Assembly (NCBI GenBank): GCA_016744375.1
Contig: JADGEM010000001.1
Span: 1-64,000 of the forward strand
DNA: 64,000 nt
Source of the DNA: Gammaproteobacteria bacterium
GTDB lineage: Bacteria > Pseudomonadota > Gammaproteobacteria > GRL18
Reading direction: 5' to 3'
The position numbers were made by a program, and so were the translations under genes. The notes beneath the pieces were generated by a model. It was not told the DNA's origin, searched no databases, and saw only the letters and a program-made list of their open reading frames with translations. Shown in pieces: positions 41,225 to 56,706 of the stretch. Position 1 is the first letter of the stretch. The number at the start of each line of letters is the position of its first letter.

Positions 41225-42340
41225 ATGAAGCCTATCACTCACTACTGGCAAAATTTTAATATTGTCAGTTTGTCTCTGGCACCACTGAGTTATTTATTTT
41301 GTTTTCTGACCTCTTTGAGGCGTTTTTTTTATCGTCTTGGGCTGTTGAAATCATCTTCAACACAAGTCCCTTTGATTGTCGTTGGTAATATTTATGTTGG
41401 TGGTAATGGTAAAACCCCATTTGTTATCTGGTTGATTGAGCAATTAAAAAAAGCCGGCTATACGCCTGCTGTCGTGAGTCGCGGTTATGGAGCTGCTGAA
41501 GACGCAGGCTATCCGTGGCCCCGACAGGCTGATCTGAATCAGGCAGCTGCTTTATTTGGTGACGAACCCTTTCTTATTCACAAGTTGACCCAGTGCCCTG
41601 TGTTTATTGATCCAAACCGAAATCGTGCTGTTGAAGCCATAAAACAAAAAACTCATTGTGATATTATTGTTAGTGATGATGGTTTGCAGCATTATGCCAT
41701 GTCTCGTTTTATTGAAATAAATATAACGGATGCAAAGCGTCTCTATGGTAATGGTCTTTGCTTACCTGCGGGCCCATTAAGAGAAAGGGAAAGCCGTTTA
41801 AAATCTGTGGATTATATTATCTACAATCGTTCACGTGGCCAGCTAAGCCCTTCTTTTAAAACAAAAAAAACAACTCAAATGCTTGAAAATAAATCATTCT
41901 TTATGGATTATGATTTTTCTGCATTGAAACATTTATCCAATCCGGCATCACAGGCAATGACTCTGTCTGATTTAAAGGGTAAAATTGTTCATGCAGTGGC
42001 TGGTATTGGTAATCCGGCTCAGTTTTTTAAAGTATTAAAAGATCATGGCTTGAAGGTTATTGAGCATCCTTTTGCAGATCATTATAACTATAAGAAAGAA
42101 GATCTGACTTTTGATGAACCTTACCCCATTGTTATGACAGAAAAAGATGCTGTAAAGTGTTACTGTTTGTTGGTTGAAGGTTCTATACTGGTTGAAGACT
42201 CTTCATTAGCTGAAAGCTCCTTATTGGCAAAAGGCTCTTTTTTATCAGATGCATGGTATTTACCTATTAAAGCAAAGGTTGATCAACAGTTGATGATTAC
42301 AATTTTAGAGCAGTTAAAAACATATAAATCGACTTCTTAA
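41225..42340 (+). CDS. lpxK: Tetraacyldisaccharide 4'-kinase with repeat insertion
   Basis: 371 residues from the ATG at 41225 (MKPITHYWQNF); the frame opens 36 codons earlier inside exbD. LpxK phosphorylates the lipid A disaccharide at the inner membrane. The P-loop region VGNIYVGGNGKTPFVIWL, the RGYG motif, the DDGLQH motif and EKDAVKC are all present. Family members are about 330 residues. Here about 20-24 extra residues, made of a degenerate hexapeptide repeat (LVEGSI, LVEDSS, LAESSL, LAKGSF), lie between EKDAVKC and the conserved DAWYLP. The insertion follows the catalytic core, so the enzyme is probably still active. Confidence 0.92.
   Translation: MKPITHYWQNFNIVSLSLAPLSYLFCFLTSLRRFFYRLGLLKSSSTQVPLIVVGNIYVGGNGKTPFVIWLIEQLKKAGYTPAVVSRGYGAAEDAGYPWPRQADLNQAAALFGDEPFLIHKLTQCPVFIDPNRNRAVEAIKQKTHCDIIVSDDGLQHYAMSRFIEINITDAKRLYGNGLCLPAGPLRERESRLKSVDYIIYNRSRGQLSPSFKTKKTTQMLENKSFFMDYDFSALKHLSNPASQAMTLSDLKGKIVHAVAGIGNPAQFFKVLKDHGLKVIEHPFADHYNYKKEDLTFDEPYPIVMTEKDAVKCYCLLVEGSILVEDSSLAESSLLAKGSFLSDAWYLPIKAKVDQQLMITILEQLKTYKSTS
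42167..42241 (+). repeat. 18-bp repeat array inside lpxK
   Basis: Four units in phase: TTGTTGGTTGAAGGTTCT, ATACTGGTTGAAGACTCT, TCATTAGCTGAAAGCTCC and TTATTGGCAAAAGGCTCT. They match the 18-bp units in rne and upstream of 56591. All are in frame with lpxK and account for its extra residues. Confidence 0.8.
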
Positions 42341-42353
42341 AAGAGGCATAATT

Positions 42354-42527
42354 GTGGATAAGAAATTACTTGATATTTTAGCCTGTCCGATTTGCAAAGG
42401 TGAACTGGACTACGATAAGGAGAGCAATGAACTCATCTGTAAAAAAGATAAGTTGGCTTTTCCAATCCGTGATGATATTCCTGTCATGCTGGAATCAGAG
42501 GCTCGTTCATTGGAACCAGCATCATAA
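42354..42527 (+). CDS. Trm112/YcaR-family zinc-ribbon protein
   Basis: 57 residues from GTG with AGAGG about 8 nt upstream. The reading MDKKLLDILACPICKGEL, ELICKKDKLAFPIRDDIPVML matches E. coli YcaR closely. Cysteines at 11, 14 and 29 form the reduced zinc-ribbon of the family. It lies between lpxK and the phosphatase, as ycaR does in Pseudomonas (where kdsB follows). The last base of its stop is the A of the next ATG. Role probably as a small partner protein for methyltransferases, inferred from Trm112. Confidence 0.9.
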   Translation: MDKKLLDILACPICKGELDYDKESNELICKKDKLAFPIRDDIPVMLESEARSLEPAS

Positions 42528-43009
42528 TGGAGAAGGTCAAAGTATTGTTTGTCTGCATGGGCAATATCTGTCGCTCTCCAACTGCACATGGCCTTTTTGA
42601 GCATCTGGTTAACACTGAGCACCTTGACGACCACTTTGAAATTGATTCTGCTGGTACTCATGCCTACCATGTTGGTTCTGAGCCTGATCGAAGAGCTCAG
42701 GAGACTGCTACAAGCCATGGAATTGATTTAAGTTATATCAGAGGGCGTAAGGTAAAAGAATCTGATTTCAGTTACTACGATTACATTCTAGCCATGGATG
42801 GTGACAATTATGCAATATTAGAACAGGCTTGCCCTGAAGAATTTAGAGATAAAATTAATTTATTTCTGGATTATGCACCTGAACATCCCCTGGATGAAGT
42901 TCCGGATCCTTACTATGGGGGGATAATGGGCTTTGAAAATGTATTTAATATGGTGAATACTGCCAGCAAGGGGTTACTGGAAGTGATCAAATCACGTCAT
43001 TTACGTTGA
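42527..43009 (+). CDS. Low-molecular-weight protein tyrosine phosphatase
   Basis: 160 residues. The P-loop C-x5-R-S is at the N-terminus (VCMGNICRSPTA, Cys10-Arg16) and the general-acid aspartate lies in DEVPDPYYGG. It dephosphorylates tyrosines or small aryl phosphates; in similar operons it often acts on envelope polysaccharide kinases. It overlaps the upstream stop by 1 bp and ends the comEC-to-phosphatase operon before a strong terminator. Confidence 0.92.
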   Translation: MEKVKVLFVCMGNICRSPTAHGLFEHLVNTEHLDDHFEIDSAGTHAYHVGSEPDRRAQETATSHGIDLSYIRGRKVKESDFSYYDYILAMDGDNYAILEQACPEEFRDKINLFLDYAPEHPLDEVPDPYYGGIMGFENVFNMVNTASKGLLEVIKSRHLR

Positions 43010-43049
43010 CTAACTTAACTCAATTTAATTTAAGCAAAGGTCGTTGAAT

Positions 43050-55880: not shown

Positions 55881-55895
55881 CTGATAACTCTCTCC

Positions 55896-56591
55896 CTAAT
55901 GGCATCGCCAGCGGTATCCGGCACCATAAATTGTTTCGATGCAATCAAAAGTACCATCTATCTGATAAAACTTCTGGCGGATGCGTTTAATATGAGAGGT
56001 GATAGTGCTGTCATCTACCACTGTGCTGGCATCATTCATTAATTGCTCTCTGGATTTAACATGACCGGGATGCTTGACCAGTGAATGCAGCATCCAGAAT
56101 TCTGTCAGGCTTAAATCAATAATTTGATTTTCCCAGCTGATTTCTAAACGTTCCAGGTTTATTTCAAGTTGATTAATGATTAACCGACTATCTTCTTGTA
56201 GTGGTTGAGTGTGAATGGCTTTCACCCGGCGAAACAGAGCTGATATTCGTGCACTCAGATGGGGTAGACTGATGTCTTTTGTTAAATAATCATCTGCTCC
56301 CAGACGTAACCCTGAAATAGTATCAAAGTCATTATCACGGGCCGTTAAAAAAATAATCGGTAATGTCTCTGATTTTTGTCTAAGTTGACGGCAGAGATCA
56401 AATCCGCCTTCAATTTCATCATCAAGACCAATATCCAAGAGAACCAGGTCAGGTATACTCACTTCAAATGCAGTTTCAGCAGCCTGTTTTGTGGCATAAG
56501 CTGTCACCTGATATCCCTGACGCAGCAGCATTTCAGTGTAATTGTCCCGGATGGCTGGTTCATCTTCTACAATAACGATTTGTTTGCCCAA
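55896..56591 (-). CDS. OmpR-type response regulator, PdsR-like
   Basis: 231 residues. Receiver domain with phosphoacceptor Asp53 (DLVLLDIGLDDEIEGGF) and conserved Lys (ADDYLTKDISLPHL), then a winged-helix DNA-binding domain (LTEFWMLHSLVKHPGHVKSREQL, split over its helices). The phrases DIGLDDEIEGGFDLCRQLR and LTARDNDFDTISGLRLGADDY are those I associate with the proteobacterial dedicated-sortase regulator. It is the first gene of the pair, followed by the kinase. Its upstream region carries three 18-bp repeat units. Confidence 0.85.
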   Translation of the reverse strand: MGKQIVIVEDEPAIRDNYTEMLLRQGYQVTAYATKQAAETAFEVSIPDLVLLDIGLDDEIEGGFDLCRQLRQKSETLPIIFLTARDNDFDTISGLRLGADDYLTKDISLPHLSARISALFRRVKAIHTQPLQEDSRLIINQLEINLERLEISWENQIIDLSLTEFWMLHSLVKHPGHVKSREQLMNDASTVVDDSTITSHIKRIRQKFYQIDGTFDCIETIYGAGYRWRCH

Positions 56592-56628
56592 TTTAAATAC
56601 CTGCTTGTTTAACTTGAAGATATTGGTG

Positions 56629-56706
56629 AAAGCCTTTAGCTAATAAATAGCCTTTAGCTAATAAAAAAATTTTGGTCAGAAAAATATGAGAACCCTCAGC
56701 CAATAA
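56629..56706 (-). repeat. 18-bp repeat units upstream of the response regulator
   Basis: On the minus strand: TTATTGGCTGAGGGTTCT (56689-56706), a 24-nt gap, then TTATTAGCTAAAGGCTAT (56647-56664) and TTATTAGCTAAAGGCTTT (56629-56646). All three match the 18-bp family in lpxK and rne. They end 38 bp before the regulator start codon, so they lie in its leader or promoter. Confidence 0.8.

Follow-up and report, generated by a model that had tools for sequence, protein, structure and literature searches.

How does one and the same short repeat come to lie in lpxK, in rne and in front of a response regulator gene, read in different frames and from different strands? This question is raised by positions 1 to 64,000 of contig JADGEM010000001.1 from a Gammaproteobacteria bacterium (assembly GCA_016744375.1), a stretch of 64,000 nucleotides hereafter referred to as the window. 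The initial annotation had proposed that 18-bp units at these three loci form a single family that must spread or be kept as DNA rather than as protein. Our comparison of sequences leads us to view them, with about even confidence, as members of a dispersed family of chromosomal minisatellites that have a structure-constrained core in common, grow by slippage or unequal recombination and have somehow reached new sites.

In the window, 21 matches to the initially proposed consensus were found when up to three mismatches were allowed, whereas 0.35 would be expected, and none of 100 shuffles reached this number. The genic and intergenic units at the three loci belong to one repeat family. The lpxK gene (41117..42340, plus strand; Pfam LpxK; open reading frame (ORF) as listed, the true start of which may lie downstream) carries four 18-bp units at 42167..42238 on the plus strand, where the core that is described below lies on the coding strand and is read as AEGS-like peptides. 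The gene for ribonuclease E, rne (43141..46239, minus strand; Pfam RNase_E_G), carries two arrays of 18-bp units in its 3' part, both with cores on the plus strand and therefore antisense to the gene, where they are read as KEPSA-like peptides. One of these, at 43610..43874, has the 15 units originally reported; for the other, at 43298..43400, 6 units were counted rather than about 7, and a more lenient finder chained the rne units as 9 and 15. The intergenic array at 56629..56706 has its three units on the minus strand, two of them adjacent and the third 42 bp off, and is located upstream of the response regulator gene (55896..56591, minus strand; Pfam Response_reg and Trans_reg_C). The unit numbers in lpxK and before the response regulator, and the reading frames in lpxK and rne, were as first proposed. 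All three tandem arrays of the window with a Tandem Repeats Finder (TRF) score of at least 60 contain the core.

The source genome (G000) is a 4.29-Mb draft in 137 contigs. When it was searched on both strands with a 14-base core pattern and up to two mismatches, 187 matches (107+80) were obtained, as compared to 8 (4+4) for the reversed pattern, and a degenerate 13-mer without mismatches gave 55+34 matches versus 2+0 for its control. Since the family occupies dozens of loci, occurs in both orientations and is found in other genera, the objection that it might be confined to three loci fails. We fetched 68 stretches around matches in the source genome, by which not every match was covered, and 28 stretches around listed matches in a close relative (G005); the L-numbers used below are labels of fetched loci or stretches. 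One finder detected 88 arrays in 97 sequences, including the window, and 0 in their reversed versions. The core was present in 28 of the 37 tandem arrays with TRF scores of at least 100 in the G005 stretches, a share that does not represent a genome-wide rate because these stretches were chosen for core matches.

Among relatives of the same family, the exact sequence GCTRAAGGCTCTT was present in 21 of 23 genomes (it was missing in G011 and G019), and the reversed control had no match in the 24 family genomes including the source genome. Genomes of other families had this sequence once each in 4 out of 33 cases, and 4 of these 33 had matches to the control. Of 369 genomes sampled across the class, 7 had a tandem pattern, two of these being from the genus of the source genome; the control had no matches. 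Scanning one genome per species for 84,980 species returned at least 117 stretches with the pattern; among the 80 matches listed, most were gammaproteobacterial by title and many were marine, with Microbulbifer donghaiensis, Marinimicrobium agarilyticum and Amphritea balenae as examples of cultivated carriers, and the titles naming Planctomycetota, Acidobacteriaceae and Holosporales may be due to binning errors. The tandem pattern had 0 matches in viral contigs, and one rne array used as query had none in plasmids, phages or E. coli. The suggestion that the element may be mobile is neither established nor refuted: arrays are present at sites that are empty in relatives, but no carrier was found in these collections, transposases not having been searched for. 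Judged from the conserved portion of rne, BB4 (93%) and SY_S20_27 (92%) were the closest among 39 genomes with named records, and a symbiont of Lucinoma myriamae was at 87%.

The period of 18 bp that had been regarded as characteristic holds inside the window and not genome-wide, where periods from 16 to 27 bp were recorded (finder spacing range 15-27 bp): 16, 18, 21, 24 and 27 bp in ORFs, and 16-20 and 22-25 bp between genes. Instead of the unit length, the constant part is a 13-bp core, GCTGAAGGCTCTT with the variant GTTGAAGACTCTT, the tandem copies of which are joined by array-specific linkers. The core approximates G-Y-T-GAA-G-R-C-TCTT, with Y2 and R8 complementing each other. The linkers are mostly 3-12 bp long, vary freely between arrays and recur inside an array. 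We viewed the anatomy in 18 of the 80 listed loci from other genomes, which were selected as non-coding or frame-breaking. In these, the core was common to the units and the linker particular to each array, and, as judged by eye, the DNA past the last core was seldom linker-like.

A stricter finder, which missed the response regulator array, detected 77 arrays of at least two units in the G000 and G005 stretches. With ORFs defined by length alone, which cover 88% of these stretches, 62 arrays are located in ORFs, with gyrA, queC, lpxK and rne among the hosts, and 15 between them. The periods are all divisible by three in 61 of the 62 coding arrays, the sole exception being a two-unit array in L245, but in only 7 of the 15 intergenic arrays (p-value of 2.5e-6). 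Inside genes the core is read in three of the six possible frames, namely frame 1 of the opposite strand (EPSA; 28 arrays), frame 0 of the same strand (AEGS; 23 arrays) and frame 0 of the opposite strand (11 arrays), which places 23 cores on the same strand as the gene and 39 on the opposite one. This shows that the DNA is the constant, and that the reading frame filters which arrays survive in genes. The frame-breaking periods between genes, the use of both orientations within genes and the presence at dozens of loci and in further genera all support the original view of a sequence that persists or spreads as DNA.

Within the core, positions 2 and 8 change together. In 398 units from 67 arrays of at least three units, these positions shared more mutual information than any other pair (0.226), the next value (0.117) belonging to two neighbouring linker positions; the finder used here, which demanded 9 of the 13 letters of GCTGAAGGCTCTT, is biased toward single over double changes. 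Pairs were further tallied by hand in pattern matches with positions 2 and 8 left free. All 42 matches in the source genome comprised 26 CG, 11 TA, 3 TG, 1 CA and 1 AG. In other genomes, the 150 of 253 matches that were listed (7 of 14 genomes) comprised 130 CG, 12 TA, 3 TG and one each of CA, GC, AT, AC and CC. For six family genomes, the 150 listed of 202 matches, with none from G006 and 41 of 68 from G015, comprised 100 CG, 31 TA, 5 CA, 3 TG, 3 GC, 2 GT, 1 AT and 5 others. Watson-Crick pairs therefore amount to 37 of 42, 144 of 150 and 135 of 150 in the source, other and family genomes, respectively, versus 23, 118 and 83 expected under independence for the same matches. C-G and T-A units occur together in 14 arrays, so that the double change has probably recurred. 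By an open-frame test, a three-unit GT-type array in G009 (L394) and T-A arrays in L390, L400 and L401 are non-coding; a two-unit GC-type array in G015 (L398) lies within an open frame. Covariation that includes non-coding arrays would reflect a constraint on the nucleic acid, not on a protein.

Orthologous genes with and without arrays were then compared, and among the genomes aligned, arrays in lpxK and queC were confined to G000 and G005. For lpxK, which had a match in 22 of the 26 genomes searched, 13 sequences were aligned and the array was absent from the other 11. For queC, which had a match in 33 of 40 genomes, 20 loci were taken and 19 aligned, with 7 units in G000 and 6 in G005. The response regulator array was present only in G000 among 8 aligned loci of 9 taken, G005 being without it. 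We also aligned 17 pairs of G000 and G005 sites, among which shared arrays are over-represented because G005 stretches had been selected for the presence of cores. The L217 array, like the response regulator array, is missing in G005, and presence or absence is less clear at L190:1701, L238 and L247:2399. Shared sites differ in unit number (for example, 3 versus 14 in L232/L374 and 4 versus 9 in L213/L366), in period (21 in G000 and 18 in G005 at L251:2454) and in linkers (L194). Linker and period are replaced throughout arrays, a form of concerted evolution as expected if units slip or recombine unequally with one another. The differences in copy number, linker and period fit the slippage invoked by the initial annotation, and we consider it well supported that the arrays grow and are homogenised by slippage or unequal recombination.

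As the covarying pair suggests, the core would act as a nucleic acid, either single-stranded or structured. Since genes carry cores in both orientations, this nucleic acid would more probably be DNA than RNA. A tiny stem may form in single-stranded DNA during replication or repair and favour misalignment, perhaps with the assistance of a protein. A new array would begin with the copying of a short piece containing the core into a site, or with the improvement of a near-match, and would then expand. New loci could be reached by the copying of short array pieces at breaks, by the improvement of near-matches, or through a recombinase. This dispersal step is the least certain part of the proposed mechanism.

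A rather unlikely explanation is that the core, or short arrays of it, are inserted by a recombinase encoded in trans, probably a Y1/HUH enzyme acting on single-stranded mini-hairpins, and that the arrays are a by-product of its repeated action. Y1/HUH enzymes do act on single-stranded hairpins in the repetitive extragenic palindrome (REP)/REP-associated tyrosine transposase (RAYT) systems and in the insertion sequence families IS200/IS605. Such an enzyme would account for sites that are occupied in one species but vacant in others, for the patchy occurrence among genera, for a 2-8 pair that covaries as in a stem, and for exact cores standing alone, which are rare (5 in the G000 stretches and 2 in the G005 stretches). 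However, the potential stem has just 2-3 base pairs, and known REP or IS200/IS605 hairpins are far longer than this. Moreover, linkers and periods vary between arrays, and target duplication was not seen in the few sites read.

Slightly less probable still is the view that a regulator or nucleoid protein binds to the core, with arrays being selected as multi-site platforms. A conserved core between variable linkers and a repeat length of about two helical turns would suit such a role, as would the finding that, in 10 of 14 cases between co-directional genes, the cores are oriented against the genes. Yet the latter bias is weak, most arrays lie inside genes and in both orientations, many are species-specific, and covariation of two positions is unexpected for double-stranded binding. 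The orientation of cores relative to GC skew was not significantly biased (25 on the G-rich strand, 14 opposite, p-value of 0.11).

That AEGS- or EPSA-type low-complexity peptides converged and the DNA followed is very improbable. Arrays recur in the RNase E tail: they were seen in or beside rne at 9 of 30 rne loci (L282-L311) in genomes that were chosen for carrying arrays, several being close relatives and several belonging to the genus of the source genome, and RNase E tails do favour KEPSA-type repeats. Some GC-rich coding cases could likewise be of this kind. However, 8 of the 15 intergenic arrays have frame-breaking periods and the same DNA is read in three frames and from both strands, by which a protein-level origin is refuted as a general explanation, although it may hold for single loci. 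Least probable of all, and refuted for the stretches examined, is that the core serves as a signal word across the genome in the manner of Chi, DNA uptake sequences or HIP1: GCTGAAGG is two bases off the E. coli Chi sequence and core matches occur on both strands, but the copies are clustered in tandem and, with cores masked, this octamer occurs at expectation (18 versus 15.6 in the G000 stretches, 22 versus 20.9 in the G005 stretches).

Three further candidates were rejected. The D-arm of tRNA-Ser was dropped as a source of the core: ARAGORN listed 27 tRNAs for the loci supplied, and the single tRNA-Ser printed reads GTTGAAAGC at this place. The arrays are not CRISPR arrays, as the short linkers are repeated within an array and are not unique spacers. 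None of the pairs of a second possible hairpin (core positions 7-11, 6-12 and 5-13) was among the top 20 by mutual information. Ten array loci had no Rfam match up to an E-value of 1.

Several observations weigh against a minisatellite family with a structure-constrained core. On the 12 strands folded, no array did better than its shuffles (z between -1.42 and +2.02), the folds of single units have hardly any stability, and 2-8 is the sole covarying pair, with 1-9 and 3-7 outside the top 20 by mutual information. It should also be noted that the units of one array and orthologous arrays are not independent, and p-values are therefore too optimistic. A form of 24 bp, the linker of which is close to TATTAAAAACC, was seen again at several loci and in several taxa, so that the linkers are not wholly independent; this would argue for the copying of whole units over that of the core alone. 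As 9 of the 37 strong G005 tandem arrays are without the core, slippage there is not confined to it. With respect to gains, a longer queC loop in G009 may hold array remnants and G005 has kept a core-like stretch at L217, and the sites scored as gains could be losses. Lastly, no factor or dispersal intermediate was identified, recombinases not having been searched for.

We put forward a more specific proposal only tentatively, as it is possible rather than probable: a distinct kind of bacterial repeat, in which a 13-bp word with a covarying internal base pair would nucleate tandem arrays at new chromosomal sites. The dedicated single-strand process involved would probably be encoded in trans and would rely on neither insertion-sequence ends nor a phage or plasmid carrier, and the repeat would be shared by descent or transfer among Gammaproteobacteria. 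If the reading as a minisatellite family is right, the short core would be the unit of persistence, and period, reading frame, strand and host gene would be free. The family would then provide a natural experiment on the multiplication of short words in bacterial chromosomes, and a gauge of how much foreign sequence is tolerated by LpxK, QueC, GyrA and RNase E. The covarying pair opens a test of whether transient single-strand structure drives the growth of bacterial tandem repeats.

Some other repeats were noted. In a metagenome-assembled genome of the K189A clade (RKSB01), L043, L055, L070 and L087 contain dense intergenic core mosaics together with a second module near TATTCCCTTTT, with periods of 13-44; these are perhaps a more active form of the core family. 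Three G005 tandem arrays (L378:3684-3768, L370:10307-10472 and L374:655-726) have units that by eye resemble diverged cores, for example GTTGAAACTCTT, and perhaps represent older subfamilies. L247:3006-9596 of G000 is occupied by an ORF of 2196 residues with several core arrays in both orientations, and its G005 counterpart also has several. The top TRF score among the G005 stretches belongs to L379:7082-8118, where a 36-bp unit occurs in about 29 tandem copies and the core is absent. The window itself has a 12-bp tandem repeat at 22879-22913, 2.9 copies of AGTTCAGGTGAT, with no relation to the core.

The family had been supposed to be undescribed. In the titles and abstract starts of open-licence literature, no description of such bacterial repeats was found under the letters GCTGAAGGCT, GAGCCTTCAGC or GCTGAAGGCTC, or by topic, which falls short of proof since a description elsewhere is possible. 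The nearest published kind seen is that of the TAACTGA direct repeats, followed by the Rickettsia palindromic elements and the PARCELs. According to the available text of PMC4679880, TAACTGA repeats occur in marine Beggiatoaceae and some Cyanobacteria and Bacteroidetes, with 169 sets in one genome, as a contiguous heptamer. Most of these sets lie between genes, shortly before start codons, and only 25 are not fully intergenic. As far as that text goes, they share with the present family the arrangement of a short word as small groups of tandem copies at many, mostly chromosomal loci, some of them in ORFs, a patchy occurrence across distant taxa and the lack of a known mechanism; unlike them, our arrays combine a 13-bp core with array-specific linkers, lie mostly in genes and in both orientations, and have a covarying pair. 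Rickettsia palindromic elements, as outlined in part of a review on miniature inverted-repeat transposable elements (MITEs; PMC10969869), are likewise found in frame within unrelated genes and are apparently tolerated, but they are about 150 bp long and encode a conserved peptide, whereas the present units are tandem, about 16-27 bp long and read in three frames. PARCELs, in the portion of PMC2996958 at hand, resemble our family in being tandem repeats with DNA-level symmetry and a punctate distribution across taxa, but have units that are 75 nucleotides long and code for a conserved domain of 25 residues, as opposed to 13-bp cores that are read in three frames and are also intergenic. Unlike REP/RAYT elements or MITEs, the arrays have no long terminal or palindromic inverted repeats, and the potential core stem of 2-3 bp has no stable fold. 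None of the known kinds compared matches in unit, placement and covariation together. In eukaryotic hypervariable minisatellites, many loci share a short core, with unit length and flanks being locus-specific and copy number variable. Like minisatellites or variable number tandem repeats (VNTRs), the present arrays consist of tandem units that change in copy number between relatives and, as in a minisatellite family, the same core recurs at many loci with locus-specific linkers, some of which recur. The core-sharing minisatellites of eukaryotes are therefore the best analogy, with no membership claimed, for arrays that are bacterial, shorter and often coding.
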